Positions 26,501-47,758 of a stretch of 64,000 bases of DNA are shown here, piece by piece (positions within the stretch are counted from its first letter, which is position 1; each line of letters begins with the position of its first letter). The notes below the pieces were generated by a model that saw only the letters and a program-made list of their open reading frames with translations, made no database searches and had not been told where the DNA came from. Source of the stretch: Branchiostoma floridae (taxonomy: Eukaryota; Chordata; Leptocardii; Amphioxiformes; Branchiostomatidae); assembly GCF_000003815.2 (NCBI RefSeq), contig NC_049995.1, forward strand, positions 13,478,062-13,542,061. The letters run 5' to 3'. The translations under genes were made by a program, and so were the position numbers.

Positions 26501-28603
26501 ATCCAGTTTTACTCACTGTCGGTCAAGACATGACATGGAGAACTGTGGAGCGAGATCTTACTGAGAGGTGGAATGCACCTGGGAGGGGTGCAACGGGCAG
26601 CATTTGATAAAAAAAAACTGCGGAGGACAATGGTCCATCTCAGCAAGGTCTCGCTCGCTCCACAGTTTTCTATGCCATACCATGGCATAAGATAGTACAA
26701 AACTGGCCAAGGAGTGTAGTCAGCCAAAAGGTGTCCATTTGCCCCGGTAGCGAAACACACTCCTACACACTCCTAAGCCAGCTTCACTCATCTGCTAGCT
26801 TCTAATACTATCTTATGCTACCGCGTAGGATCTGCTTGGCGATAAAGTAATCTAACCTGAACTGTACCGGGAAGCTGGCAGGCTTGCGGCGAATAGAATC
26901 CGGGAACAAGGGCTGATCCACGGTGAGGACTATGGCGGCGTAACCCGCCCGTTCTGCCCGCTCCAGGAGCCGCTTCATCCGGCCTCGGTCTCGGTAGAAC
27001 AGCATGTAGAACCAGCGGACCCCCCGCGGAGCCGCCTCAGCCACCTGTTCTAAGGACTGACTCGACCAGGAACTCAGGGCCATCAGGGTGTTCATGGAGG
27101 CAGCGCCTAGGAATTGGACAGACAGGTACTTAGTAGATGTACCAACAGCTATTTCTTATTTTAAACCAGCTCAGCCACGAAAAGAAAATAACAGCGCATT
27201 CAAGCAACAAAGTTTCCAACACAAAGTGACGTGTTCAAATATCTGTACATCCGTAGAACCCGTATAGAGTTTTATGGAGTTGGATTCGTTGGCATCAAGT
27301 AAAGTATCAAGATTGTCATCCTCACAAGATAGCGTTGCCACAATGCCTGCAGTGTCGGCGAATGTTGTGAGAATGACTAATGATCTTCTGTTCATTATCT
27401 CAGTCTTGGTTTATAGATTTATTTAATATCTATTTCGCAAAGGCACTTTTTCTGTGAAATCAAATTATGAGAAGTGTCCATAAAGAAAACATATAAAAAC
27501 AAGAACTAAGTAATTGTGAGCGATTTTTTCGTCTTATTCGGTAGAATTTGACGCCCTGTTGTAGTCATCGTAGCCGCCGAAACACATTGTCATCGTTCAT
27601 AAACGGTAAGTAGCGAACCTTTTGCAGTTGCCGCCTCAGCATCTGGATGAGCGACTTTGTGAACAGCCGTTGGCGCAATGGCTACTGGGAGATCCAGTCT
27701 GGAACCCAGCACGGTGACCGAGGTGTCCCGGATGTTGACGTCACGCAGGTTCCGCGGGATGAGGCGGTACCTGGGTTCAAGGTCAACATTTGAAGTGTTT
27801 TGAAAGTTAATCAATGACCACGGAAGTTAGTTCTGTATCTGTATCTGTATCTATATAGCCGATATAACCGCCGTTCGGCGTAACACACCAGCTTTGCAGG
27901 CACGTGGCGCGGCAGCAGCTGGTTACATCACACCGAACGACCCGTTACCCCTAACTTTTGCACATCTATCTGCAAGCGTTCTTTAAAACTACCGAGACTG
28001 AGAAGATGCCCCTACTGTACTTGATAATAACAAGTTCCACTCTGCGATAGTTCTGGGAAAGTACGAATTTTTGAACACATCAATCCTAGGTTGGTAACTC
28101 TGGTATTTGAAGGCATGACTGTTTCTTGTTCTTTTTTGAGCTGGTATTAGATACTTATCCGCTGTATCAGTTATTATAGTTTAGGCAATATTCAACCAAC
28201 AGGCTTGTGTATACACTGTGACATATACCCATACTGTGACACAAACTGTAAAACACACACACACACAGTGGCATAGACACACGCATGGCCTACATGCAGT
28301 GACACAAAAGTGTCAATAATTACACACACACACACAGTGACGCATACACACAGTGACACATACAATGATACACATATTGTGACATACTGTGACACACACA
28401 CGCACACACGCACGCACAGACACATGCACACCCGAACACACAAAGAGAAAACCCTACCGTTTAAAAGCCTGACAGTTGTCCCTATAAGTTTGCCCCCCCT
28501 CCCCAGGGTGACTGTAGTACCCCCGGGCGAACGAGGACATTTTTTCGCCTGCCGCTTTCTCCAACTCCGTCAGAGACGTCCCCTTGGAATGGACCTCAGA
28601 CAT
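23515..28603 (-). CDS. HAO1-like: 2-hydroxyacid oxidase (HAO1-like), copy 3, complete
   Basis: Eight exons from the ATG at 28603: 28458-28603, 27619-27770, 26857-27106, 25995-26158, 25347-25438, 24449-24607, 24051-24120 and 23515-23636. They sum to 1155 nt, or 384 residues. Exon lengths equal those of copy 2 except exon 1, which is three bases shorter. It starts [14 protein letters not shown] oxidase landmarks are [52 protein letters not shown] and IGRP. Donors are normal here (GTAGGG, GTAAGT), unlike copy 2, so this is the better candidate for the active gene of the pair. The segment FYMLFYRDR again replaces the conserved Gln and Tyr of the active site. The C-terminus is VTSKY. Exons, introns and ~320 bases of upstream sequence are shared with copy 2. 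Confidence 0.92.
23735..23966 (-). repeat. tRNA-derived SINE-like repeat in HAO copy 3 intron 7
   Basis: Same element and position as in copy 2: GGTATGACTCGGCC, then GGGATCGAACTC (B box on the - strand). Shared insertion marks common descent of the two genes. Confidence 0.5.
24725..25010 (+). mobile_element. LINE 3' tail-like sequence
   Basis: Ends CTGTACAATAAAGGTCTTCATTCATTATTTCATT, a 3' UTR-like stretch followed by degenerate CATT units as in CR1/L2-type LINE tails. It lies in HAO copy 3 intron 5. No reverse transcriptase frame is visible here. Confidence 0.4.
25731..25900. repeat. TACTGTAAATGCA MITE in HAO copy 3 intron 4
   Basis: Ends TACTGTAAATGCATTTAAG and AACATTTCTGCATTTACAGTA with GTTCGCGG/CCGCGAAC cores. 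Same family as 22467-22675 and 36812-37023. Confidence 0.85.
26640..26836. repeat. MITE of the TAGTCTCCAAGCAG family in HAO copy 3 intron 3
   Basis: CATGGCATAAGATAGTA...TACTATCTTATGCTACCGCG inverted arms with GGAGTGTAG/CTACACACTCC inner arms. The right edge lies 20 bases from HAO copy 3 exon 3. Confidence 0.65.
27825..28160. repeat. Dispersed repeat in HAO copy 3 intron 1
   Basis: Begins with a short TCTGTA tandem (TCTGTATCTGTATCTGTATC), then a GC-rich segment with CGTTCGGCGTAACAC and CACACCGAACGACCCGTTA. It is absent from the same intron of copy 2, so it is a later insertion. Family not identified. Confidence 0.4.
28236..28445. repeat. CA-rich microsatellite in HAO copy 3 intron 1
   Basis: Interrupted CA repeats immediately next to the exon-1 donor, matching the longer tract in copy 2 intron 1. 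Confidence 0.8.
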
Positions 28604-29264: not shown

Positions 29265-30518
29265 CCTCCTCACCTCACCGGTCCCATAGCCTCATCGGCC
29301 GTAGGGGCAGCAATGCCATCAACGAAGGTTTTCCATCTCCTCCTATCTTCAGCCAGGGTTTCTAGCTGATGTACTGTCTGACCATTCTTTCAGGTCACTA
29401 GTCCAAGTCCGTCGTGGACGTCCCCTAGGTCTTACACCCTCCGCCCTTCCTTGCAGTAAAGTGTGAGTTAGAGTGCCCTTTGCTCTTGTAGCATGGCCAA
29501 ACCACTGTAGCTTCTTCTTTTTCACAAGCGAAAGGAAACTGGGACATGGGCCTACCAGGGCATTAACACGCTGCATGACTTCTCTGTTTGTGGTGTGCGG
29601 TGACCAGTGGACCCGAAGTAGTCTTCGGTAGCAGTTCATCTCGAATAATCCGTTTCACAATCTCAGCGTTTAAAGTCCATGCCTCAGCTCCATATAGGAA
29701 GACTGATAACACAAGGGAGCGCAGCAGTTGGATTTTTGTTTGCGGGGAAATGTTATAGCTATTCCAGATGTGTTTTAACCTTGACAATACGGAAGTTGCC
29801 TTAGCTATTCTGACCTTTATCTCTCTTACTGAGCTACAGTCCTCTGTCTGAAGGGAGCCCAGGTATGTAAATTCACTAACCTGTTCTAGGTCAGTGCCTC
29901 TCACTGTAACCTGTACTGTGTCTGACGGGCCAGTCACTAGGCACTTGGTCTTTTCAAGGCTGACTTCCATACCGTATCTCCTACTGGTAGAGTCCAGGCA
30001 GCTAAGGTGAGTTTGTTGGTCTTGTTTACAGCCATCGATCATGTCAACGTCATCGGCAAATTGTAGGTGGTTGATGATACGACCTGCGAGTTTGACCGGT
30101 GACTCTAGAGGTGGCAAGGCTTCTCTAATGATGTTCTCCAAGAAGATGTTGCAGAGTGTTGGTGACAGCAGAAACCCTTGCCGCACTCCTACTGACGTTG
30201 GGAAGCATTCGCTGAACTCGTCTCCTATCATCATGACTATGCTTTGTAGAGTGCTTCAATGGAGCTAATGATGCCCCGACTTATGTTGAAGCGACGCATT
30301 ACTGCCCACAGTCCGTTCTGCCATACCCTATCAAAGCACTTCTTGTAGCAGACAAATGTGTGGTACACTGGTTTCCCAAGTTCCCTGTACTTCTCACAGA
30401 TCATACGTAGATTGAAGATCTGCTCAGCGCAGGACCTGCCTTTCCTAAATCCGGCCTGTTCTTCTGCGAGGATCTGTTCAGCTTGTGGTTGAAGCCGCTT
30501 TAGGATGATCTTTAGAAG
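29265..30518 (-). mobile_element. 5'-truncated LINE with reverse transcriptase, inactive
   Basis: On the - strand, reading from 30518, EEQAGFRKGRSCAEQIF is a reverse transcriptase block. It is followed, after a frame interruption, by PTLCNIFLENIIREAL, LQFADDVDMI (catalytic YADD-type motif, here FADD) and FTYLGS. YGAEAWTLNAE, then RLLRVHW, LQWFGHATR and GRPRRTW in another frame complete the C-terminus. Endonuclease and N-terminus are missing. It is flanked by the apparent target duplication AAGCCGGGTTC (29254-29264 and 30519-30529), which lies in the tip of the MITE at 30520. It has at least two frame breaks, so it cannot move by itself. Confidence 0.85.
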
Positions 30519-33151: not shown

Positions 33152-36100
33152 TCATGCTCTCTTCTTCTCTTTTCTTGGAGTTTCCCTTGGTCCTGTAAAT
33201 GTAAATGAAACATGATGTTGTTTAGAGATGCAATAAATGTAGATATTTTCATAAATGTATGTCTGTAGTATTCAATACATTGATATGTCAACTTGAAAGC
33301 TCTGTGTCAAAAGTTCCTCTACATCAGAGCTCTGTAACCATCTCTAATGGGCAAAGACGGAGGGCACCATAGACTTTCAGCAATTTATTGTTCACTGCTC
33401 ATGGAGTCTACATACTAGCATGACGTCAGGGAAGCAGTTGATTCCTTGACAAAGTCTGGAATCGATCAGTCGAAAATTTGAGTAAGTCCAATTTCTTGTG
33501 TTGGAAATTATAGAAGTAGTACACATACATCGTTATGCAGAATTTTCATGACATTGTGTTTGACTGAATTGAAACTGGCAATTAATTGGATTAAGCAATG
33601 GCATCTTTGTGTGCTTTACATACAATATAATTCAAAATTGCACTCACTTACACTCAAACTCACACACTCACTCACACACTCACTCACTCACTCACTCACT
33701 CACTCACTCACTCACTCACTCACTCACTCACTCACTCACTCAACAACAAATCACTCACGGTGACAATCTGATTTAACATAATTTTTTTCCATTCAGATGT
33801 GCTTGCTGAAGAGGAGAAGAGGAACAAAGTCCTACATATGTAACAGTGCAACAAACAATGATTACCTACCCCAGAACATGTTGTTGCAGACCTCCCCTAG
33901 TAGGTAGAAACAGCAGCCTATAACAGCCGTGAAACAGCAGAACAGGAAAAACTGGAAATTGTTCATAGCTGCCATAAAGGGGTACACCCAGAATCCACCC
34001 ACATGGGCAACTATCAGCACCCTGGGGAATGGAGAAAAAAAAGAGGTTTGTGGAAGGTCGAACCATTGTTTCCACACATATGGCAATGTGAATAAATTCC
34101 ATTGAATAAACGAGTAAAAAAGCGAAGTCAGGAACTTTATGCTTGTTGCTATTGGTCACAATAATCTATAATTATTTCTTTGGTAGTTTGACATTTTAGC
34201 AATTTTTTTCTTCCCATTTTTGACAAGAAAGTCTGATTGCAGCTGCAGGGTGTCCTTGAGTAACTTCTTTTTGACATATCTTATTCCCTGGATGTCAAAC
34301 CTTCATTACATCCTTAGATTAGGTGTTTGTGTTTTCTATGGCCTTGTGACTTTGTAGAGATGTTCATAAAAAGAAGGGTCCTCACCATATAAGGTATATA
34401 ATCCCCACGGTGACTGCTCCAGTGAGGCCTGCCCGGCGCGACGGCTGCCTGTGGTGAACCAGGTACATCTCCAACAGCAGAACAGGCACCACTGTCGTGT
34501 GCTGAGGACGGCAATAAGCAATCACAACAGGCACCACGGTCGTGTGATGAGGACGGCAATAAAGCTCAGTCATACAGTAGACACATACTGGGACACTTTT
34601 CTATTGTGATTCCAATGTATGAATGAAGGATACACATGTGAAACCCAATGGAAAACATAGCTAATATCCATGACCAATTGCTCCACCCACAGAAACACAA
34701 GGACCTGCCAGCCTGCTGTCTGCTATGCTCTCCTCCCAGGAGTGATAGATTATCATGATACACATTAGAATCAGTCTCTAACTGGCAATAAGGAAACTTT
34801 TCGGATATTGTGAGCGAGTGTGTGCGAGTGAAACCTACTCAAACGTGGTTGATCCAGGAGCTCGAGGAATGATCTTGTCCAGAGACAGTGAGCGAGTGTG
34901 CTTGAGTGAAACCTTTCCTTTTCAGGCAGGTATGATCTTGTCTAGCAATTAAGCGAGAGTGTGTATGAATGAAACCTACCCAGACATGGTTAATCCAGGG
35001 ACGAATGATCTTGATGTGTGAGCAAAACCTACCCAGACATGGTTGATCCAGGGAGGAATGATCTTGATGTATGAGTAAAACCTACCCAGACATGGTTGAT
35101 CCAGGGAGGAATGATCTTGATGTATGAGTAAAACCTACCCAGACATGGTTGATCCAGGGAGGAATGATCTTGATGTATGAGTAAAACCTACCCAGACATG
35201 GTTGATCCAGGGAGGAATGATCTTGATGTATGAGTAAAACCTACCCAGACATGGTTGATCCAGGGAGGAATGATCTTGTCCATAGATGTCGGGAAGATCA
35301 TGTCACGATCCACGGCATAGATCCCCCAGAACACAACAGTCACGATCTGCAGCAAAACGTGACAAAAGAGCATTTATCATTCATGGTACAAAATAATGGC
35401 ACCCGCAAATGGAGTACATTGAATGCTATTTGAATCAAATCCCCAAATAGAAAAAAAAGTGAGGGACTTTTTGTTTCGCTTAAAAAAAAAGAAATTGGAT
35501 TTAAAAACATGACCTCTCACCTGTCAACTTTGAACTCACCCTGCTCATAGAGAACAGTACAAGGGCCAGTACAGAGTCCTGTATTACCTATGACCTCTCA
35601 CATATTAACTATGAACTAACCATGCTCATACTAGTCATATATAGGGAACAGTACCTTTGACCTGTCACCTATAAACTATGAACTCACCATGCTCATAGGG
35701 AACAGTACAGAGGCCAGTACATAGTCCTGTATTACCTATGACCTCTCACCTATAAACTATGAACTCACCATGGTCATAGGGAACAGTACAGAGGCCAGTA
35801 CATAGTCCTGTATTACCTATGACCTCTCACCTATAAACTATGAACTCACCATGCTCATAGGAAACAGTACAGAGGCCAGTACATAGTCTTGTATTACCTA
35901 TGACCTCTCACCTATAAACTATAAACTCACCATGTACATAGGGAACAGTACAGAGTCCTGTACTACCTATATGACCTGTCACCTATAAACTTTGAACTCA
36001 CCATGCTCATAGGGAACAGTACAGAGGCCAGTACATAGTCCTGTATCTTCCTCAGTCCAGCAGCTTTCTTGCCCAGAACTCCTTCTATGAAGTCAGCCAG

Positions 36101-37190
36101 AACACAGCTAGCAAAGAACACAGTGTGGCCCATCTGCAAAACAAAATCAAACAAACATGAATAGTTTGAAATCATGTTGGTACATCACTGCTATCATTTA
36201 CTGCTACCAAAGTTACCTTCTTCAGGGCAAAACAAAAAAATTGTGAAGCAAGCGTGAATAGTTTCATCAGGTTGGTATGTCACTGAACAGGGGAACTCTT
36301 TTTTCACAACCCTTGCTTTACTGCTATTGACATTTTGGTGACCCGTGTCTATCACCTTCCTCAGGGCAATTCAGACTGGTCCAGTTCACATTGTTGCAGC
36401 TACCAGTACCTAAAACTACCTTGCAAAAAAACTGTACATGGAGGAAGAGTAAGGGTTAGGGCAACAAGGATAATGGACTGTAATGACACTTAATGAAATA
36501 TTAACAAGAGTATTTAGATTAGAAAGGTGGTCATGATCAAACTGTTTTGCAAATCTGTGCTGTTTCACAGGTCAAATCGTTTGAGTCAGGGAAAAATGAG
36601 ATGGTGTAATAGTTGAGTAGTCTCCAAGCAGATTCAATGGCAGCATATGAAAAGCTGGCAGAGGAGTGAGTATGACCAAGGAGGTTGAAAGAGGGGCCTT
36701 GGTATGACTCTGTCATAGCTTTTGATACCATCTTATGGCAGTTATAGAGGCCACTGGAGTCATATACTCATACGTGTACTGATCAAGGAGGTTGAAAGTA
36801 CTGATGTAGCTTACTGTAAATGCAGAAATGTTCGCGGTGGATTAATGTTCGCGGTTTTCGCGGTGGACACTTTACCGCGAAATTAAAACCACCGCGAATA
36901 TTTTTCCATGGCAGTAAGAGACTACAGCACATGGTGCTACCGCGACATTAAAACCACCGCGAAAAGCCCATTTTCCCGCTACCGCGAAATTAAATCCCCG
37001 CGAACTTAAATGCATTTACAGTACTCACAAATACATATGTTGTGAAGTTAACAAAACGTCCGCCAAATCGAGTGCTCGAGTTCCCAAGTGGCAGGATATA
37101 TTCCCTGTCATACAACTCTACGCACACGTAGAGACAGAGGAGGGGAACATGGACTAATCGTGCGAGGGGGTGGATACGAGCGGACGCCAT
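33152..37190 (-). CDS. AIG1-like: AIG1/ADTRP-type hydrolase: shared exons 2-6 plus first exon 1a
   Basis: Multi-pass membrane threonine hydrolase of the AIG1/ADTRP family. In vertebrates these split fatty-acid esters of hydroxy fatty acids. Exons: 1a 37029-37190, then shared 36002-36133, 35245-35346, 34386-34501, 33870-34021 and 33152-33192. They total 705 nt, or 234 residues; human AIG1 has 238. Shared landmarks are VFFASCVLADF, FPMSM, VVFWGIYAVDRDMIFP, INHVW, HTTVVPVLLLEMYLVHH (His133, the presumed catalytic His, AIG1 His134), GGFWVYPF and FYLLGEVCNNMFWG, then a short basic tail ending EKKRA. Exon 1a supplies Thr50 (AIG1 Thr43). Shared exon 2 starts in phase 0, so any of the ten first exons upstream can join it. 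Tandem arrays have duplicated the 3' ends of exons 2 and 3 into their introns. Confidence 0.9.
33657..33752. repeat. (ACTC)n microsatellite
   Basis: Nearly perfect tetranucleotide repeat in the last intron of the AIG1-like gene; it makes a spurious LTHS-repeat frame. Confidence 0.95.
34970..35280 (-). repeat. 53-bp tandem array of the exon-3 3' end and its splice donor
   Basis: The last ~30 coding bases of shared exon 3 (…CCCTGGATCAACCATGTCTGG) plus the donor GTAGGTTTTAC recur six times at exactly 53-bp spacing. The CTACCCA marks are at 34976, 35029, 35082, 35135, 35188 and 35241. Only the copy at 35245 is joined to the rest of the exon. A more decayed relative is near 34833. Confidence 0.93.
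35530..36020 (-). repeat. 81-bp tandem array of the exon-2 3' end and its splice donor
   Basis: Seven copies of the exon-2 end (coding ...DYVLASVLFPMSM) with donor GTGAGTTC. GAACTCACC-type marks are at 35532, 35613, 35680, 35761, 35842, 35923 and 35994; the common period is 81. Only the last, at 36002, continues into the full exon. Confidence 0.93.
36612..36745. repeat. Truncated TAGTCTCCAAGCAG MITE
   Basis: The left end GTAGTCTCCAAGCAGATTC is present and an inner arm TTTGATACCATCTTATGGCA; the right terminal repeat is missing. Confidence 0.6.
36812..37023. repeat. TACTGTAAATGCA MITE directly at the exon 1a donor
   Basis: Ends TACTGTAAATGCAGAAATG and AAATGCATTTACAGTA. The right edge (37023) lies five bases from exon 1a, so the donor GTGAGT takes its sixth base from the element or its TA duplication. 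Confidence 0.85.
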
Positions 37191-37774
37191 CTTTCTCCTG
37201 CTGCTGATCGTGTGAACAATAGGCACTCACCTAACCTTATAATGCACAATGTTGTCCCATGCTACCTACCTTAAACAAACACTTCTGTACACAGTGGGTT
37301 TACATTAACAGGTACTTTGCACTCTAAATGTAGGTCACTTGAAAAGCCAGGCCAGGGCTATCTCCAGCATTTTTTTGTCCAAATCCTTGTTTCATTTTAT
37401 AAACTTTTATGGGTAGGATACTTGCTTCCCAGCACATACTCCTTTCCTGGCATATATTCCTTTCCCGGCATAAGAACCTTCCCGGTTGAAAATTGGGAAT
37501 CACCTTCCTCCATAAATCCTCTTTCCCAGACAACTCACAGTCACACCAATGCCCACAGAAGCCAGTGAAGGAGGCAAGCCGAAATCTGGAAATGGTGAAT
37601 TGGTGCCCCCCCCCCCCCCCCCCCCCACACACACACAAAAGTCACACCTTCAAGGTTGTGAAGAAGTCTAGAGAGAGCATTATTCTTTCCATACATTTAG
37701 TTTCAAACAGGTTTTCTCACTATTGCATTATAAATACTTCTACTTACGGACTATCGAATAATAGATCTACTTAC

Positions 37775-37927
37775 GAACGTGAGTTGAGTAAGGTATTTGT
37801 ATGACCTCCCAAAAAGCTTTCGGCCTGGTTGAAGGTCACCGATGTTTGCATTGTCATACAACCAGGAGTAAACATAAACAGTAAACAACACAACATGCTG
37901 TGCAACAGCTAACCCTCGGGCGGCCAT
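37775..37927 (-). CDS. AIG1-like: AIG1-like alternative first exon 1b
   Basis: 51 codons from ATG to a GTAAGT donor, phase 0. It starts MAARGLAVAQHV, has one hydrophobic segment (VVLFTVYVYSWLY) and ends FGRSYKYLTQLTF, with the presumed catalytic Thr47 five residues from the exon end. It aligns with residues 1-48 of human AIG1. No exon 2 of its own follows before exon 1a, so it must use the shared exons or be dead. Confidence 0.85.
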
Positions 37928-38139
37928 CTTGGATATGGGTCATACCAAAATACAGTGGGGGTCTGTGTAAAAGCCGGAATTGTAAGTTCATTCATCATCT
38001 GTCTTCTGGGACAATTGATTTCACATTAGGAAGGGAAAGGGTTTTGGGCAGTGTTCCAGATATTTCCCTAAGTTGATGAATTGTCCAACATTTATAATAG
38101 AGAAATGGGTTGGATGACCATGAAAAATGGAGGTATAGT

Positions 38140-38900
38140 TTTGAGTGTGTCTGTGTGTGTGTGTGTCGAGATCTGTCTGTGTGTTTGTGTTTCCGGATAT
38201 TTGTGGACATCATAACTTGAGAACCTCTTGATGGACTACGATGATATTTGGTATGTGGGTAGGGGTTGGAAAGACGAAGGTCAAGGTCAATTTCGGGCCC
38301 CCTGTTCTGTGACCTTGGTACTGCAGCAGAATTTCAATTTTTTGTATTTTTTTACCTGGACATGCCATGGTCTTGATTTCTTGGTGGCAGATAGCTTTTG
38401 ATGTAAGGATGAAGTGGTGTATGTTTGGGCCCCCTAGCAGCTTGCTCTGGAACTGCAGGAGCATTTTTGTCAAAATCTTCCAAGGAGCATAATGGAACAC
38501 AGGAATGATGGATTTCCATGATATTTGGTATGCAGGTACCTGTGGCAGAGATGTACTTGATGAAGTGCAAATTATGCAAATTTGGACGTAATTTACATAC
38601 TTAATGAAGAAAATCTATATTTACAGTATTTTCCAATATAGGACTCAAATACATGTTACATGTAGTTTGTAGCAGGCAGAAGTTAAGCAGATACTAATTA
38701 TGCAAATGAGTCCCTAATTTGCATAATTGATTTGAAAGTGCCCTAATTCTTCTTAGTACGTGTAGTAAATGATTGGGCCATCAACACTGTGACCTGTGTA
38801 AGTTTAGGTGTACATAAGCAAGCAAAAATTATGTGTGAAAGTGATTTGCATAATCAGAATATTTCAGGTCTCCGAACTCTTGTTTCTTCAAGCAAGAAGA
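38140..38900. repeat. Dispersed repeat, same family as the 58.4-61.1 kb insertion
   Basis: ACATCATAACTTGAGAACC, GATGATATTTGGTATGTGGG and TTGGTACTGCAGCAG recur, in the other orientation, at 59100-61000. GTGTGTCTGTGTGTG and AATTATGCAAAT stretches are also shared. Unclassified non-coding mobile repeat between exons 1b and 1c. Confidence 0.55.
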
Positions 38901-40316
38901 TTGTTGGTTGGTAATTCACCTTCAAGTTCGTGAATTCACGTTATGTGTATTACTGGTACCCAATCTAAGTACTAGGTAGGTAGGTTACAGGTAATCTAAG
39001 TAACGAGGCTGTTTACATGCTCAAGGTTCCTCTTACAACAGGGACCCCCATTTAAAATCATTTCAAAAAGACAATTGCAGGGTCTGTGAAAACCTTGGAA
39101 AAAATTATTTCTTCCTTCCAGAAATGAAGGGTGAACATTGACTGATAAAATGTAGTTCATCTTTTTTTGACTGCTTTTCTTGTCAAGTATTTATGTTTTC
39201 TTGTCAACATAATTCATTTTCATATCCTGCAAGATCTGAATACCATGGTTAGAAACAGGTGCATGTTGTCCCATGGGGATATGAATGACAGGTGGTGCTA
39301 TTCACAGGCTATGTTGTCTAAAGGGATGGGTTAATCTACTTGCATTACCGGTAAAACTAGGTAGAATTAAAAAAAAAAAAAAACAGAAAAATCAATATGA
39401 TTCTTGTGCTGGTTGACAATGCATACATTTCATCATCTGTCCATTATTCTTTGTTGCCACCAGTACTCTTTGCCCTCGGGCACGAACTTGCAAATAAACT
39501 TCTTCATTATATATTTCATTCATTCATTAATCTCCGGGGATTTGCTAGCAGTCTGTCCTGTTTCCTATTTGCCCTAGCTACACTACAATGGGGCAGGTTG
39601 ATATGCATGGCCTGTGCCTGTCCTAATTGTGAGTTAATCAACCGTGTAATGCATGTAAAAGCTGGGAAGAAAGGGACAGGATTCATCCCCTACACCAAAC
39701 AAAAAACAACGGACAGGAGTGATAGTAACAGAAAGATAAAACCAGTTCCACTTCCATGCTATATCCTAAGTACGAAAGCACACACACATACTGCTGAATA
39801 TAACTGATTGAGAACCTTGGTATGGACTGATGGAGCTTTTACTGCCGTTAGGCTTTGTACAAACCTGTCGAGTAGTAGAGTCAATAGCCCACACCATTTT
39901 GCGCTTACCTTACTTTTGACAGAACAAAGAACATTTCACAGAAGGCAAATACTTCACTTACAGACATTATGGCCTGTCTCCAGGACCTGTCCCTGCTATT
40001 TGGTACGAAAAAGAAAATATCATCCCATCCATCCTCTAAACTTGTAGGGCAAACATAATATATCATTGGCTATACAGTGTACACAATTTCATTGCAGATA
40101 AAAATTTGCTCTAAAAAACATTTGTAAAGCAAATCTTTATTTAAACCTTAATGGATATAACAGTTACTGTTAAAATACTAATTAAAATCTTAACAGATAT
40201 AACTCTTAAAATTGTTAGATATAATCATTGCATATCTACCAATGCAGGTAACATGGATGGCTTAAGGGACAGAAAAAAAAAATGTAGAGCAGTATATTCC
40301 ATAAATGATTACTTAC

Positions 40317-40472
40317 ACAATTCAGATATGTTAGATATTTCCATGGCCCCCCTATACGCTGTCGGTCGGGCAGATACGGCGTATGCAGCAGGTACAGATA
40401 GTCGTATCGCTCTACGCAGCAGTATACGTACACGAGCAGTACATGCACAGCTGTTGCCTTGGTAGTGGCCAT
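40317..40472 (-). CDS. AIG1-like: AIG1-like alternative first exon 1c
   Basis: 52 codons, ATG to GTAAGT, phase 0. It starts MATTKATAVHVLLVYVYCCV and ends IGGPWKYLTYLNC. The GGxWKxLT core is very close to human AIG1 GGSWKFLT, and Thr48 is at the usual place. About 2.4 kb of repeat-rich DNA separates it from 1b. Confidence 0.87.
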
Positions 40473-40549
40473 CTTTGATATGGACTGTACCAACTGACAT
40501 GACAGCAGGGGTGCATAGCCAAGTGACAACCATTGGCTAACACTAGGGA

Positions 40550-40762
40550 CATACTCTCCAAGCAGAGGTTTGGCTCTGACTGTTTTTTTGTTTTTCAGTT
40601 AATTTTAGGTCTTATTATAAGGCTTTCTATTTTGTGCTGTTTTTTTTTTTCTTTATTGCCAGGATTAAGACATAAAGAAAACAGCACATTACATTAAAAT
40701 AGAAAGCCTAAAACTGTGACGTAAAAATAACAGCCGGAGGCTAACCTCTGCTTGGACAGTAA
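40550..40762. repeat. MITE, ACTCTCCAAGCAGAGG family
   Basis: Ends ACTCTCCAAGCAGAGGTT and AACCTCTGCTTGGACAGT. Inner arms TAGAAAGCCT / AGGCTTTCTA and ACAGCACA form a long hairpin. Related ends are found at 46287-46435. Confidence 0.75.
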
Positions 40763-41700
40763 CAGACTACAGTCAAACATGTATATGATTAAGGATTTGG
40801 TCCCATTTTGGAAATGGGGCCCGGCCAGAATGTTTGCGGAAATGAAATAAAAAAGTGTTTACTAAGGAATACTTTTTTTACTAAGGAATATACACAATTC
40901 ATAACCAGTGGAAGACTAGCTCTTCAGTGAACTTAAACTGGATTAAGATCGCTTTTTTTTTAATTTGCCCAATTTTTGTCAACCTCTCATATACCAGTTA
41001 AGTCACAAGCAACCTGAACATTTAAATAAAGGAATTATCTTTGCCTCTTCTAATTCATACACAAAAAGGCTAATGAAGGTAATGTATATATATCAGTAAT
41101 TAAGGAATGGAAGGCTGGTGAATAAAGATAAACTCTAGACTAGATTTCATTTAGTCAGTGCTTTTAGCACACCTGAATGGGGTCAAAGTACATGCAGGTA
41201 GGCTAGTAGAAAAGACATCAATAATTACCGTTAAAAGCAAATCAGATTTCTTGATTGCTATTGAAAGCGTAATACATGTGTAGAAGATTTGTCACATCTC
41301 AAACAACATATACGGCATTTTTCATTTCAAAGTTATCAAAGAATTCCTAAATATGGAGGATATCAAAATCAAACTTCAGTGGACTGTTTGTAGCACCTTT
41401 GCCAAGTGGTTTCCATTACAGTATGTGACTATAGTAAATGAGTAATGTACGATAAATGCATTAAATTCTATGTTTGCAAGAAGGCGCAACCGCGAACTCA
41501 AATTCAAAACCACCGCAAGCACCCCGTTAATCCACTACCACGAAATCAACTCCCCATTAACTTAATCAGCATTTTCTAATAATCTAACCTTCACTAACTC
41601 ACCTCTGGTTAAGTTTTTCTTTCCTAACATTTACGAGCAAGCAAGCAAACGAGGATGCACCTTTGGCAAAATGGGGAAAAGATCAGATAAAAATACTCAC

Positions 41701-41859
41701 AGTTGTCCATACAGTTAGCCTGCCTGATCTTCGTAGCCACTGATTCTTTGGTGGGAAGTGTGGCAAGATATACCATGCATTGTAGAAGTCTTTATACATG
41801 TACACACAGAAAAGTAGTACATGCACTAAAGAAGTAACTGCACCAACTGTAGAGGCCAT
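41701..41859 (-). CDS. AIG1-like: AIG1-like alternative first exon 1d (type I)
   Basis: 53 codons, ATG to GTGAGT, phase 0. It starts MASTVGAVTSLVHVLLFCVY and ends RRSGRLTVWTT, with Thr49 as the presumed nucleophile. It forms a close group with 1e and 1g. The GG pair before the Trp of the family is lost in this group. Confidence 0.87.
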
Positions 41860-42239
41860 CGGTGAAAAATGTAGGATATATTTGGTTCTAGAAGTTAAAG
41901 TGGCTGGCAAAGCCTTAAGTCTTAAATTTCCTTAGGGGATCATTAGTGGAAATGTATTAAAAGGCATGTGTTATACAAATTCCAAAATCCAAGGAGGTTG
42001 TATACAGTCACATGATTACTTAACCAGGCAAATATTGGGATGTGCATGGGGGTTCTGAGGGTTCGTGAAGGTAAATAAATTTTATCATACTAGTACTTAA
42101 TTACTGTTTCTTTTCACATAAGATATTTCCTTCACAATGAGAAAAATGGCTGAATATTACACAAACCATAAGAGAGGTGGCGAGCAGGTTTCTTCAGAAT
42201 GAATTCCAGCAGGCATAACCTCAATCATTCAGTCAATAT

Positions 42240-42356
42240 AAAGACGTTGTTGTGATCAACATTGTACACACGGTAGGAACAGCATATCAATGATTAACTT
42301 GTACTGTTGCAGCAAATCACCTTTCTCTATAAATCTAAAAACATTGAATGACTAAC
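42240..42356 (-). pseudogene. Relic of a lost type II first exon
   Basis: This stretch matches the intron flank on the 3' side of exon 1f (AAGACGTTGTGATCA, GGTAGGAACAGC, ATCAATGATTAACTTGT, AATCTAAAAACATTGAA). It ends with only the last few exon bases, GAATCTT, and a changed donor (GTTAGT). The rest of the exon is gone and is replaced by decayed TACTGTAAATGCA MITE sequence. Confidence 0.65.
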
Positions 42357-42550
42357 AAGATTCTACCGCGAACACTCCATTTTTTCCCTACTGAGAAATT
42401 AATTCCCTGTGAACTTAAATCAGCATCTTCTACTTATTGCGAACTAACCTTCAACAATTCACCTGTGGTTGTGTTTTTCTTTCCTAACATTTATGAGCAA
42501 GAATGCATTTTTGGCAAAATGACGAACAAAAAATATATATAAATACTCAC

Positions 42551-42706
42551 AGTTGTCCATACAGTTAGCCTACCAGAATTTCGTAGTCCCTGTCCTTTTT
42601 CAGTTGAGTGTGGCAAGTACCATGTTAAGTACAACTCTTTATATATGTACACAAAGAACAATAGTACATGCACTAAGGAGGCAACGGTACCAACTGTGGA
42701 GGACAT
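42551..42706 (-). CDS. AIG1-like: AIG1-like alternative first exon 1e (type I)
   Basis: 52 codons, ATG to GTGAGT, phase 0. It starts MSSTVGTVASLVHVLLFFVY and ends RNSGRLTVWTT (Thr48). It is a close paralogue of 1d and 1g. An in-frame reading continues upstream of this ATG, so a longer start is possible, but paralogues agree on this one. Confidence 0.87.
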
Positions 42707-43005
42707 CAGTGAAGGATATATTTGTTTCAAGAAGTGGCTGGCAAAGCCTTTTAAAAGTCCTATATTTTCTGAGGGGATTATTAGTGGATATATCTCTGTT
42801 GGAATGCATACTAGTAATGTACGTAACATGCAGGTTCCAAAGTCCAAGAAGGTCAGGATTAGTTAACCACGCAAATAGTGGGGTGTGCATGGGATTCATG
42901 AGGATAAACTCTATTATACTTAATTGTCATTTCTATCCACATATAGTCTTTCCTTCACATTGAATGATTGATTGAGCAAAATGACTGCATATTCATCACT
43001 GAAGT

Positions 43006-43250
43006 ATACCCCTGTCACATTATCCGCGGTCTTCGGGCATATCCATGGAAGATCGACCATATTTAAGATCGACATCTCTCTAGGGTTGCGCATATTTTTT
43101 ACCTGAAAACTGTCCCTGTCACATACAAGTCATACTTTGTACCTTGTACAATTGTTGTGCAATAAATTTATTATTTAATTATAAGCGAGGATCGGGCGAT
43201 TGCCGCAGAATCGTCGTCCGATCGATTTTCGCCAAATGTAACCGGGGTAT
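43006..43250. repeat. MITE, TACCCCTGTCACAT family
   Basis: Ends TACCCCTGTCACAT and ACCGGGGTAT. It contains TTGCCGCAGAATCGTCGTCCG. The same element lies in the opposite orientation at 49520-49747. Confidence 0.75.
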
Positions 43251-43457
43251 TACAAAGATCATAATAAAAGTAGCAAGCAGATCATTCCGGTTTCATTAAA
43301 ATAGAGTCTGATGATGCATGCAGATCCTCAATGTAATTAAAGACGTTGTGATCATCATTAACCTCCTTGATTGTACATAGGGTAGGAACAGCGTATCAAT
43401 GATTAACTTGTGGCAACTCAACATTCTCAAGAAATCTAAAAACATTGAAACACTTAC

Positions 43458-43610
43458 AAGATTCCACACGGTAAAGAACACAGAACGATACCGAAGCCCT
43501 GGCATCTTGGAAGCATGGGGCCTTACATACTGCATATTGTAAAACTCCTCAAAAAGGTACAAGAGGCAGAAGAAAATGTGAACAGTACGAGAAGTGGTCT
43601 TCCCTGCCAT
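43458..43610 (-). CDS. AIG1-like: AIG1-like alternative first exon 1f (type II)
   Basis: 51 codons, ATG to GTAAGT, phase 0. It starts MAGKTTSRTVHIFF and ends RYRSVFFTVWNL (Thr47). It is a close paralogue of 1h. An upstream in-frame ATG at 43631 would add MGRELAA. A complete hAT-like MITE (43652-44000) begins 42 bases upstream of the chosen ATG, that is, in the probable promoter. Confidence 0.85.
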
Positions 43611-43651
43611 GGCTGCTAGTTCTCTGCCCAAAGTTCATAGTATATACCTAT

Positions 43652-44000
43652 CAGGGCTTGAAATACTTGTTTCTGCATACCTGCACTGGTGCAGGTAACA
43701 TTGAAAATTACCTGCACCAGATAAATTTTACCTGCACCACCCTGAATTTAAGAAGTATGGATCATACTTTTAAATTGCTGACGAACCATTGCTGTATGTT
43801 TTCTTCTATACTAACAGTCAATGCAGCTAATAGCAATCCACATACAATGTAAACTTGCATCATAGATTCATAGGACATTCATGTATAAAACCCAGTACAT
43901 GGGCCAGTGCAGGTTAGGTGCAGGTAGACACCAGAAATACCTGCACGGCTTCAATTTTACCTGCACTAACCTGCATATGCAGGTGGTATTTCAAGCCCTG
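43652..44000. mobile_element. hAT-like MITE with 5-bp target duplication
   Basis: Ends CAGGGCTTGAAATAC and GTATTTCAAGCCCTG, flanked by CCTAT on both sides (43647-43651 and 44001-44005). Internal GTGCAGGTAA motifs occur in both orientations. Other copies: 45190-45523, 54372-54706 and 58182-61215 (split). It lies immediately upstream of exon 1f. Confidence 0.85.
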
Positions 44001-44448
44001 CCTATATTTACATACCAGTCCTATATTTACAATGTAGTAGCCAACGGTCAATGGGCCTGTGAAAATCAAAGTTACAATTTGCATGCACACATAGTCAAAG
44101 ACTGAAATAGAGGGATGGGTGTGTGGGGTGTGTGTATGTGCTGGTCTCTAGATCTGTGTTACATCAAGTAGAAAATTGCTAGCAAGGACTTGCCCGCAAA
44201 GTTGATTCTTTCAATTGAAAATTTGAACCAATCCTGTCGAACACCATATCGAACAAATAGAACCCCCTATTCTATTTTGAACACTTTTGATTCTTGGTTG
44301 CTTAAATATTAGTTATACTGACAGCTTAGAAGGTTTATCACATGATGTCAAACAACATATACAGCATTTTTCGGTTCAAAATTATTAAAATATTCCTGAA
44401 TATGGCTGGATATCAAAAGCAAAAGCTGTCTGTTAAGTTTGTTTGTAG

Positions 44449-44620
44449 TAGTCTCCAAGCAGATCCTATGGTGCCTTAGAGATAGTATCAAAGCTGGCAA
44501 AGGAGTATAGCCGGCCAAAGGGAGATAGCCGACCAAAGGGAGTCAAATGTGCCGCTATACTAAGTCCCTGGCCAGCTTTGATACTATCTCCAAGGCACCG
44601 TTGGGTCTGCTTAGAGACTA
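44449..44620. mobile_element. Mutator-type MITE, 172 bp, 9-bp target duplication
   Basis: Ends TAGTCTCCAAGCAGATCC and GGTCTGCTTAGAGACTA. The flanks are TGTTTGTAG on both sides (44440-44448 and 44621-44629). Long inner arms match (GATAGTATCAAAGCTGGC / GCCAGCTTTGATACTATC). It is the best-preserved member of the family. Confidence 0.88.
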
Positions 44621-44791
44621 TGTTTGTAGCACCCTACCCAAGTGGTTACTGTATGTGAATGCATTTACGTTCTCGGGATGGCGCTACCGCCGCAACTCAA
44701 AATCACCGCAAGCAACCCTTACACCGCTATCGCAAAAATCAACCCATGCATCCTTGGCAAAAAGAAGAACAGATAATATATAAATACTCAC

Positions 44792-44950
44792 AACTGTCCA
44801 TACAGTTAGAGCAGCAGATCTTCGTAGCCACTGATTCATTGGCGGGAAGTGTGGTAAGATATACCATGTATTGTACAACCTTTGATACATGTACACACAG
44901 AAAAGTAGTACATGCACTAAAGAAGCAACTGCACCAATTGTGGAGGCCAT
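44792..44950 (-). CDS. AIG1-like: AIG1-like alternative first exon 1g (type I)
   Basis: 53 codons, ATG to GTGAGT, phase 0. It starts MASTIGAVASLVHVLLFCVY and ends RRSAALTVWTV (Thr49). With 1h it repeats the order of the 1e-1f pair, showing duplication of a two-exon unit. Confidence 0.87.
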
Positions 44951-45189
44951 CGTTGAAGGATATATCTTCTGGTTCAGAAACTTGCAGAAGTGGTACTCTA
45001 TCAAAGACTTTATGTCTTTACTAGTACCTGGCTGAGGGGATTATTAGTGGGAATATTTCTTCTGTTGTCCAGAATATGTGTTATACAAATTCCAAAATCC
45101 AAGGAGGTACAGTGTCATGATTACCAAACCAGGCAAATAGTGGGGTGTGCATGGGGACTTTGAGGATTCATGGGGTAAACTTTATTATA

Positions 45190-45523
45190 CAGGGCTTGAA
45201 ATAGCCACCTGCATATGTAGGTTAGTATAAGTAAAATTGAAGCTGTGCAGGTATTTCTGCTGTCTACCTGCACCTAACCTGCACTGGTCCATGTACTGGG
45301 TATTATACATAAATGTGTAATGTAGCTGTATATGGATTGTTATTAGCTGCAAGGACTGTTACCACCTATAAAGTATAAAACAAAAAAATAGCAATGGTTC
45401 CTGAACAATTTTATTATGATCCATACTTCCTGAATTCAGAGTGGTGCAGGTAAAATTTGTCTGGTGCAGGTAATTTTTAATGTTACCAGTGCAGGTATGC
45501 AGAAAAAAGTATTTCGAGTCCTG
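45190..45523. mobile_element. hAT-like MITE, second copy
   Basis: Ends CAGGGCTTGAAATAG and TATTTCGAGTCCTG, flanked by TTATA. The duplicated segment near 42905 has the same flanks (CTATTATACTTAATT) without the element, which gives an empty site. Confidence 0.82.
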
Positions 45524-45887
45524 TTATACTTAATTAACTTAAATGTACCTCTGTCTAAAACAGCCCCAGCGCCGCAGAAATGGACAAAGAAAAAGGGGAG
45601 GGATCAATCTGGAGAGGGGGGAGGGGAAAGTTGAAACACATAGACGGACAACCCAATTTTTTGGAGAGGGGGGTAACAATTAACGGACTAATATAATAAA
45701 AAAGGCAGCAAATAAATCATTCGATCTAGTTGAAATTAAATGGCACTTATTTACATCCGCATGTAGAACCTCAATGTAACTGTAAGGTCGTTGTGATCAG
45801 CGATTGTTACTAGAGGAAAAGCCTGCCAATAATTAACATGTGGCAAATGAAGTTTCTCTACAAATCTTATTATAATGAATGACTTAC

Positions 45888-46049
45888 AGTATTCCACACG
45901 GTAAAGAACACAGAGCGATACTGGAGTCCCGGCATCTTGGACGTGTGGGGTTTTATGATGTACTGTGTGTTGTAAAACTCCTCAACGAGGTACAAGAGGA
46001 GTAACAAAATGTGAACGGCACAAGGGGGGACCGTAACCTTCCCAATCAT
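45888..46049 (-). CDS. AIG1-like: AIG1-like alternative first exon 1h (type II)
   Basis: 54 codons, ATG to GTAAGT, phase 0. It starts MIGKVTVPPCAVHILLLLL and ends QYRSVFFTVWNT (Thr50). It is a close paralogue of 1f (shared MPGL...YRSVFFTVWN). Confidence 0.87.
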
Positions 46050-46139
46050 GGCTGACTTTTTGGCTCAAAGTACCGATAATCTACTGTCCAAAGGTCACTG
46101 GGCCTGGAAAAACCAATAGTATGTTTCCAAATATGGCCC

Positions 46140-46480
46140 TGAAATTAGTTGGTGCACACTTGGCAGTACCCATCTCCATTACTGTACTAGTAGGCCTTGG
46201 CCACACAACTTTGTGCAATCACTACAGCAGGGGGCTAGTCTACTGTTCAACTACTAGTACTTTCTCAAATGCTGAGTGCACATCAGACTCTCCAAGCAGA
46301 GGTTGGTGGAAAAAATCGTGACCTTTTTCTTTCATTCGTTTTTCATCGACGGACCTTTCCACCAACGTCGGTTGATAAAAAATGGATGAAAGGAAAAGGT
46401 CACGATTTTTCCACCAACCTCTGCCTGGAGAGTAAGCTGCACCATAAAGTCTTTCTTTGACTCAACTGGGTCCCTACAAA
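46140..46480. repeat. SINE-like fragment interrupted by a hairpin MITE
   Basis: 46145-46280 resembles the repeat at 4430-4560 (CCATCTCCATT, GGCCACACAA, TGTGCAATCACT, GGGGGCTAGTC). It is broken at 46287-46435 by an element with ends ACTCTCCAAGCAGAGGTTGG and CCAACCTCTGCCTGGAGAGT. Confidence 0.6.
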
Positions 46481-46878
46481 ATGCATTACAAACACTAGTA
46501 CTCTAGTAAATAACCACTCAGCCACTAGCATGTCTGCACTTAAGGTTAACTGACTTGTCTCAGCTTATCGCCAAATGGTACGCTCATGCCATACCATTAT
46601 GCTCATGCCGTACCATTTTGTGAACTCAACTATATAGTTGTCGTAAACTACACAAGAGCAAATTCTCACGCATACACACACACACAGTACACACACACAC
46701 CATAATACACGCATAATTTACATTATACCTCACATGTGTGTGTGAGTGCACACACTGACGCGAATAACACATGCACACATGTGACAGAGCGAAAGAGAGA
46801 TGCACACAGACAAACATACACACAGACAATACCCAAAGTTTTTAGTCTTTGGGGGAGGGTAGAAATTAAGGGACTTAC

Positions 46879-47052
46879 AAAGTTTAAGACTGTCAAAAAC
46901 TTCCATCTGCCTCCAAACGTTAACTTGAACGGAACCGGAGATCCATAGACGTCATCAACATACAGAACGTCGTAGTACTGCACGAACAAGTGGAATCCAA
47001 ACAAAACAAAGTGCCCGACTTTTCCAAGAACTTCTTTTTGGGTCGCCGCCAT
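46879..47052 (-). CDS. AIG1-like: AIG1-like alternative first exon 1i (type III)
   Basis: 58 codons, ATG to GTAAGT, phase 0. It starts MAATQKEVLGKVGHFVLFGF and ends FGGRWKFLTVLNF (Thr54), closest in this block to vertebrate AIG1 (GGSWKFLTF). It pairs with 1j. Confidence 0.87.
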
Positions 47053-47239
47053 AATGACTGTGGACTCAACCACTCATTTCTGGGGGTAAATGACCTTGAA
47101 CTAAAATTTGCAAACGTTTAACTTTAAGATTCTTTTTGTGTTGGCTTAAGGGCATAATTTAGTTGGGAAAAATATTTCTAAAAAATGCAGTTTTTACTCT
47201 GTAACGTTACAAAGAAATTGTAGATAATTTGATCTACTT

Positions 47240-47580
47240 CAGGGCTCTAGCCAGCGTCTGTTTTTCCGTCAATTGACGGAAATTTGCTGCATGTGACGGA
47301 AAATTTTTTAAACCAATCCGTCAACCTTGACGGACAAAAATTCTTGGTGGAAGCTACAGGCGGCTTGGGGACGCTGTCCACGGGCGGAAAGCCACACACT
47401 GTTTGTTTTGCTATTGTTATGATTGTTGATTTAGTGTGTCGGCGCCCTTTTGCATACGATAATCTCATTAAAAACCCGTTTGTCAAGGTCTCAGTTCCGT
47501 CTTTCTAACTTAACTTTCGCGGTTTTCGCGACAATGGGAATTGGCTGACGGAAAAAAAATTCGATCTGGCTAGAGCCCTG
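47240..47580. mobile_element. hAT-like MITE, 341 bp, inserted at the exon 1j donor
   Basis: Perfect 15-bp ends CAGGGCTCTAGCCAG and CTGGCTAGAGCCCTG with a perfect 8-bp duplication ATCTACTT (47232-47239 and 47581-47588). Inner TGACGGA/TCCGTCA repeats. No coding capacity. Confidence 0.92.
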
Positions 47581-47590
47581 ATCTACTTAC

Positions 47591-47758
47591 AAAGTTTTGG
47601 TAGGTCATAAACTTCCATCTGCCTCCAAACGTCGATCGTAGGCTTCCTGGAGCACTGAAGAAGTTGTCAATGTAGAGATAGTCGTAATATTGCGTGAACA
47701 TGTACAAAGTAAATATCAGAACATGTCCAGTTTGTCCCTGAACTCTAACCACCGCCAT
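47591..47758 (-). CDS. AIG1-like: AIG1-like alternative first exon 1j (type III), most distal
   Basis: 56 codons, ATG to GTAAGT, phase 0. It starts MAVVRVQGQTGHVLIFTLY and ends FGGRWKFMTYQNF (Thr52). A hAT-like MITE (47240-47580) is inserted so that its 8-bp target duplication begins two bases into the intron and contains the rest of the 5' splice site; the donor text GTAAGTAGAT is kept. No further first exon was found upstream to 50.2 kb. Confidence 0.87.

Follow-up and report, generated by a model that had tools for sequence, protein, structure and literature searches.

The window analyzed here is a stretch of 64,000 nucleotides from the lancelet Branchiostoma floridae (contig NC_049995.1, positions 13,478,062 to 13,542,061). 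Between its positions 33,152 and 47,758, on the minus strand, lie ten tandem candidate first exons for a protein of the AIG1/ADTRP family, followed downstream by one set of exons 2 to 6 for the remainder of that protein. These exons are listed below, with the expectation value (E) of the match between each first exon and the profile described in the text.

37029..37190, minus strand: variable first exon 1a, 54 codons (E = 3.5e-15)
37775..37927, minus strand: variable first exon 1b, 51 codons (E = 1.9e-19)
40317..40472, minus strand: variable first exon 1c, 52 codons (E = 3.2e-22)
41701..41859, minus strand: variable first exon 1d, D type, 53 codons (E = 6.6e-21)
42551..42706, minus strand: variable first exon 1e, D type, 52 codons (E = 3.3e-12)
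43458..43610, minus strand: variable first exon 1f, F type, 51 codons (E = 1.5e-19)
44792..44950, minus strand: variable first exon 1g, D type, 53 codons (E = 6.7e-21)
45888..46049, minus strand: variable first exon 1h, F type, 54 codons (E = 2.6e-18)
46879..47052, minus strand: variable first exon 1i, 58 codons (E = 5.5e-11)
47591..47758, minus strand: variable first exon 1j, 56 codons (E = 2.3e-18)
36002..36133, minus strand: shared exon 2, 132 bp, phase 0 at both ends
35245..35346, minus strand: shared exon 3, 102 bp
34386..34501, minus strand: shared exon 4, 116 bp, starting with the codon for the His that aligns with AIG1 His134 (HTTV)
33870..34021, minus strand: shared exon 5, 152 bp
33152..33192, minus strand: shared exon 6, which carries the stop codon and gives the protein C-terminus KKRA

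All ten first exons could be re-derived from the DNA with the properties that a sequence-only reading of this stretch had ascribed to them, which are a minus-strand location, an ATG, 51-58 codons, a phase-0 end, and a GTRAGT splice donor. An upstream stop codon closes the reading frame in every case. Seven classes are distinguished: a, b, c, i, j, the D type (d, e, and g), and the F type (f and h).

A profile built from nine lancelet N-termini of database proteins (numbered P0001 onward here), none of them from the window, was run on the 1,704 open reading frames (ORFs) of the window. The ten first exons match it with E from 3.2e-22 to 5.5e-11, and the match starts at the exact ATG in nine of them and ends at the exact donor in nine. 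The next-best match (E = 0.01, positions 45252-45181) falls within the cluster and is regarded as noise, and the remainder are weaker. Controls gave best values of 0.072 for the reversed window and 0.017 among five shuffles. The nine N-termini were taken from 13 lancelet sequences after omission of P0001, which equals 1i, and of P0011-P0013, which belong to another gene. P0003 was retained though it is 92% identical to 1c, so the test is not independent for that exon; this record probably represents a haplotype of floridae type. When eight of the ten first exons were searched by themselves for the family domain PF04750, 1i gave a weak match (13.8 bits, E = 0.04) and the other seven gave none.

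The earlier proposal of one set of exons 2-6 beginning in phase 0 also holds, with a single body in the 64 kb and all ten joins in frame. When the whole window is searched by tblastn with the body (E up to 1) and with the first exons, no second body appears, nor does a partial one between the first exons. The other matches of the body are brief tandem repeats of the 3'-terminal parts of exons 2 and 3, together with two weak stretches (E = 0.23 and 0.40). Full-length tandem genes or a second body in the window are ruled out by this search. The spliced products of the ten first exons and the body are all open and have 231-238 amino acids. Of these, two were scanned for PF04750 and score 179.6 bits (1j) and 162.9 bits (1d), against a cut-off of 24.5. 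We take the C-terminal KKRA to be a KKXX-like motif. Two minisatellites overlap the body, one at 34962-35278 (53 bp x 6) and one at 35652-36046 (81 bp x 5). They are made up of 3'-terminal parts of exons 3 and 2, splice donors included. In the B. floridae protein P0001, the 10-residue end of exon 3 is present twice.

Protein records from lancelets join these first exons to the body. A protein search gave 17 matches, of which ten (P0001-P0010) carry the window body or its orthologue, four (P0011-P0013 and P0016) belong to a second lancelet AIG1-like gene, and three come from elsewhere; 16 of the 17 were aligned, P0016 being left out. All seven first-exon classes are represented among P0001-P0010, and seven of these ten records are named as numbered isoforms. 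The N-terminus of P0001 is 100% identical to 1i. Class j is represented by P0002 (B. belcheri isoform X2, 70% identical to 1j), class c by P0003 (92%) and P0004 (B. belcheri, 77%), class a by P0005 (B. lanceolatum isoform X4, 44%), class f/h by P0006 (B. lanceolatum isoform X7, 69% to 1f and 71% to 1h), and class b by P0007 (B. lanceolatum, 73%). The D type is found in P0008, P0009, and P0010, whose N-termini are 47-57% identical (P0009 is 57% identical to 1d). Within a single assembly, the bodies of B. lanceolatum isoforms X4, X5, and X7 are identical at 180/180 residues while their N-termini differ, and a B. floridae x B. belcheri hybrid shows the same for its isoforms X3 and X4. The window body agrees with that of P0001 at 180/180 aligned positions, save for the ten-residue repeat, and with that of P0003 (1c type) at 176/180.

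At the level of protein models, mostly from other lancelets, these records support the suggestion that different N-termini are joined to the same body. We interpret the locus, with a probability of about 0.87, as a conserved cluster of variable first exons of one gene for an AIG1/ADTRP-family integral-membrane hydrolase, in which each transcript would have one first exon spliced to the only exon 2. The gene would then probably encode ten forms of the enzyme.

Classes recur across species in a tree of 23 N-termini. Support is high for 1b with P0007 (96/87), 1a with P0005 (93/87), f/h with P0006 (100/99), and a clade of the D and F types (97/97); the c group (81/74) and the pairing of j are weak. 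P0008 groups with P0010 at 100/100, but this pair has no one-to-one counterpart among the window exons, which suggests that classes are also gained and lost. Divergence is faster in the first exons than in the body. Compared with B. lanceolatum, identity is 87% for the body (P0005), 73% for 1b, 69-71% for f/h, and 44% for 1a; compared with B. belcheri, it is 83% for the body (P0004), 77% for 1c, and 70% for 1j.

The array appears to have grown by tandem duplication. In a self-comparison of the DNA, the repeated D units measure about 450-570 bp and the F unit measures about 280 bp. The comparison also reveals a remnant of an eleventh first exon between 1d and 1e:

42246..42366, minus strand: remnant of an F-type first exon

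The remnant consists of flanking intron and about 10 bp of exon, with the donor changed to GTTAGT and the rest of the exon replaced by other sequence. The resulting order of d followed by a dead F, e by f, and g by h suggests that a two-exon D+F unit was duplicated in tandem. Growth of the array would thus probably have included copying of this unit, along with exon birth and death.

Nonsynonymous changes are significantly rarer than synonymous ones in two pairs, with a rate ratio (dN/dS) of 0.28 in f/h (Fisher p = 0.0026) and of 0.31 in i/j (p = 0.0006). The sequence-only reading held that the open frames and good donors argue for selection and against dead copies. Frames and donors are indeed kept in all ten exons and constraint is evident for these two pairs, but it is non-significant for d/e/g and one copy is dead.

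Several observations weigh against a ten-way first-exon choice. The lancelet isoform records are automatic models. Among the listed matches only one named B. floridae model has this body (P0001, with 1i), and it bears no isoform number; further B. floridae forms may sit inside 90% clusters, such as the cluster of six members that P0003 represents, or may be absent. Values of dN/dS for d-g (0.72), d-e (0.50), and e-g (0.87) are non-significant (p = 0.31, 0.06, and 0.45). In a comparison that covered 8-mers and made no test for longer or degenerate motifs, there is no convincing common upstream motif, as no 8-mer within 300 bp upstream is common to more than three of the seven classes. Finally, the bodies of P0005 and P0007, from two B. 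lanceolatum assemblies, are identical at 165/180 residues, and four of the 15 differences precede a different, unrelated-looking C-terminus. A second body in B. lanceolatum is therefore conceivable.

The locus could instead be one in which 1i and the body form the only working gene, and the remaining first exons are a graveyard of duplicates that B. floridae rarely, if ever, splices. The use of 1i by that sole B. floridae model, the insignificant constraint on the d/e/g pairs, and the dead remnant would all fit. We think this very unlikely: the frame, start, GTRAGT donor, and the threonine discussed below are kept in 10 of 10 exons, f/h and i/j are constrained, and every class is joined to the body in records from other lancelets, including 1c on the 176/180 body of P0003. 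It would be more surprising still if the single body were an assembly artefact, produced from a tandem row of full-length genes by the collapse or loss of their bodies. The minisatellites of the shared body can disturb assembly, and the 15 differences between the two B. lanceolatum records might be read in the same way. However, one body with many N-termini recurs in other assemblies and species with bodies identical at 180/180, the sole run of N in the window (12720-13005) is far from the cluster, and the spaces between the first exons hold no part of another body.

The first exons might also be mutually exclusive second exons behind a shared non-coding leader, so that splicing and not promoter choice would select among them. 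Untranslated leader exons are compatible with the DNA alone, and in the 200 bp before each ATG the top-scoring AG acceptor-like site reaches 10-12 on a crude scale, near the 12-15 of real acceptors. Yet scores of 10-12 are the commonest values among 1,988 random segments of the window, and a shared leader thus finds no acceptor enrichment upstream of the ATGs. Start contexts were also scored against the consensus that we assume for the translation initiator of short 5' untranslated regions (TISU), an element presumably linked to YY1. Exons a, b, c, i, and j score 9-11 of 12 and exons d-h score 5-8, where 2.1% of the 2,544 ATGs in the window reach 9; Kozak and Ala-2 codon bias confound these scores. 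A study of amphioxus by cap analysis of gene expression (CAGE) plots YY1 motifs at ubiquitous promoters and TATA boxes at those that are embryonic- and tissue-specific (PMC6292497; this and all papers cited below are represented by excerpts). The TISU-like context of five of ten starts, with the confounding just noted, also counts against a shared leader, which we regard as unlikely. Broad use of the outer exons and regulated use of the inner ones would be a guess.

The catalytic residues of this family appear to be divided between the variable and the shared exons. They are Thr43 and His134 in AIG1 and T47 and H131 in ADTRP (PMC8123165; mutagenesis, PMC11139994); the AIG1 histidine is numbered 181 in PMC8394805, versus H134 in the other two papers. 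A threonine aligned with Thr43 is present in 10 of 10 first exons of the window and in 9 of 9 other N-termini with this body, and it lies five residues before the end of every first exon. The equivalent of His134, for which motif contexts were compared with those in PMC11139994, is the first codon of shared exon 4. In an alignment of 31 of 40 proteins (P0001, P0016, P0019, P0020, P0033, P0034, and P0038-P0040 were left out), the histidine column is invariant and the threonine column has Thr in 27 of 31 sequences, Ser in P0011, P0012, and P0018, and Pro in P0029. By this alignment, the predicted catalytic pair is divided between a variable exon (Thr) and a shared exon (His).

A search by sequence for solved structures found none from a relative. 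P0004, which is a 1c-type relative, was modeled with AlphaFold from the 31-sequence alignment (predicted local distance difference test score, pLDDT, 84.6; predicted template modeling score, pTM, 0.82). The model has a helix at residues 2-29, a low-confidence loop, and a helix from residue 46, which places Thr48 in the first turn of helix 2. As judged by comparison with exon 1c, the first-exon part of this model (residues 1-52) covers helix 1, the loop, and the beginning of helix 2, which includes the threonine. Within the loop (alignment columns 33-59), no residue is common to 14 of 19 N-termini.

The second lancelet AIG1-like gene may show a related variation. It is represented by P0011, P0012, P0013, P0016, and P0018, and its body is identical to the window body at 88/180 positions (49%). 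Two N-terminal types occur on bodies that are identical at 184/190 residues (P0012 versus P0013, from two assemblies). The Thr43 column holds Ser in P0011, P0012, and P0018, from three species, and Thr in P0013, an isoform X2; the Ser-type and Thr-type N-termini do not group together in the tree. The records suggest that in both B. floridae and B. lanceolatum the cluster shares a chromosome with this gene, and tblastn with the proteins of the second gene finds no further exons of it in the window.

If the locus works as a variable-first-exon cluster, transcription would start at one of the ten first exons from an adjoining promoter, and the GTRAGT donor of the chosen exon would be spliced past the intervening exons to exon 2. 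From the sequence and the model of P0004, the first exon supplies the start codon, the first helix, a loop that varies among exons, and the beginning of helix 2 with its Thr, and exons 2-6 supply the rest with the His134 equivalent. Each isoform is thus predicted to be a complete Thr/His hydrolase with its own first helix and approach to the nucleophile. The first exons may differ in the tissue or stage of their expression, and they may tune the choice of lipid ester substrate, as has been proposed for UGT1 variable exons. A stronger and more doubtful possibility is that first-exon choice rewrites the catalytic site: each exon would bring its own promoter and nucleophile-bearing helix, giving ten lipid hydrolases with different substrates, and the sister gene would swap Ser and Thr. 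If true, this would be a non-vertebrate parallel to UGT1A that acts on lipid esters.

As far as the anatomy shows, the cluster matches the UGT1A type of organization proposed for it, with tandem first exons and common downstream exons. The vertebrate UGT1 (UGT1A) locus likewise has homologous first exons, isoforms that differ only at the N-terminus, and exon birth and death (PMC1885805). The lancelet gene belongs to another protein family and lineage, and its variable part is just 51-58 codons for a helix, a loop, and the catalytic Thr. UGT1 also has a conserved motif upstream of each variable exon, a feature that does not define clusters of this wider kind, whereas in the lancelet array an upstream 8-mer recurs in three of the seven classes at most. 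The clustered protocadherins alpha and gamma and GCNT2 resemble the cluster in splicing variable first exons to constant exons, and the same paper calls the variable-constant organization of Ugt1, Gcnt2, and Ugt2a vertebrate-specific (PMC1885805). Unlike the hydrolase, the protocadherins are adhesion molecules and GCNT2 is a glycosyltransferase. Protocadherin variable exons are also much larger. With vertebrate AIG1 and ADTRP the cluster has in common the PF04750 family, the Thr/His pair, and six predicted membrane helices (ADTRP).

Among the best-ranked matches in the open-licence PubMed Central (PMC) literature, as excerpted, we found neither a description of the lancelet cluster nor a variable-first-exon array in vertebrate AIG1 or ADTRP, in agreement with the earlier supposition that none had been described for this family. 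Three isoforms of ADTRP have been described (PMC8123165). As far as our searches reach, the cluster is already visible as automatic database isoforms, yet it is undescribed. A survey of the AIG1/ADTRP family that included B. belcheri and B. floridae removed alternatively spliced sequences (PMC8394805), so the cluster would have been invisible to it. The "AIG1" of an amphioxus pangenome study (PMC12373286) is the GIMAP GTPase domain PF04548, which is another family.

A ten-exon array with classes that recur across lancelets would be an independent case of variable-constant organization outside vertebrates, in which the variable exon bears the nucleophile. It offers natural experiments on the role of the AIG1/ADTRP first helix for fatty acid esters of hydroxy fatty acids (FAHFA) or other lipids, and with the published CAGE data from amphioxus (PMC6292497), the question of separate promoters is open to a direct test.

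Other repeats and gene fragments occur in the window. Between the first exons are an inverted pair of 364 bp and 79% identity (43649-44000 and 45190-45526) and three palindromic repeats (46287-46433, 44449-44620, and 40552-40761), all of which are perhaps transposon-derived. A domain scan of 20 of the 116 long ORFs detects, on the minus strand, a reverse transcriptase fragment at 29566-30255 (PF00078, E = 1.1e-13) and a piece of an FMN-dependent dehydrogenase at 26811-27155 (PF01070, E = 7.3e-18), which is perhaps an exon of the downstream neighbor gene.

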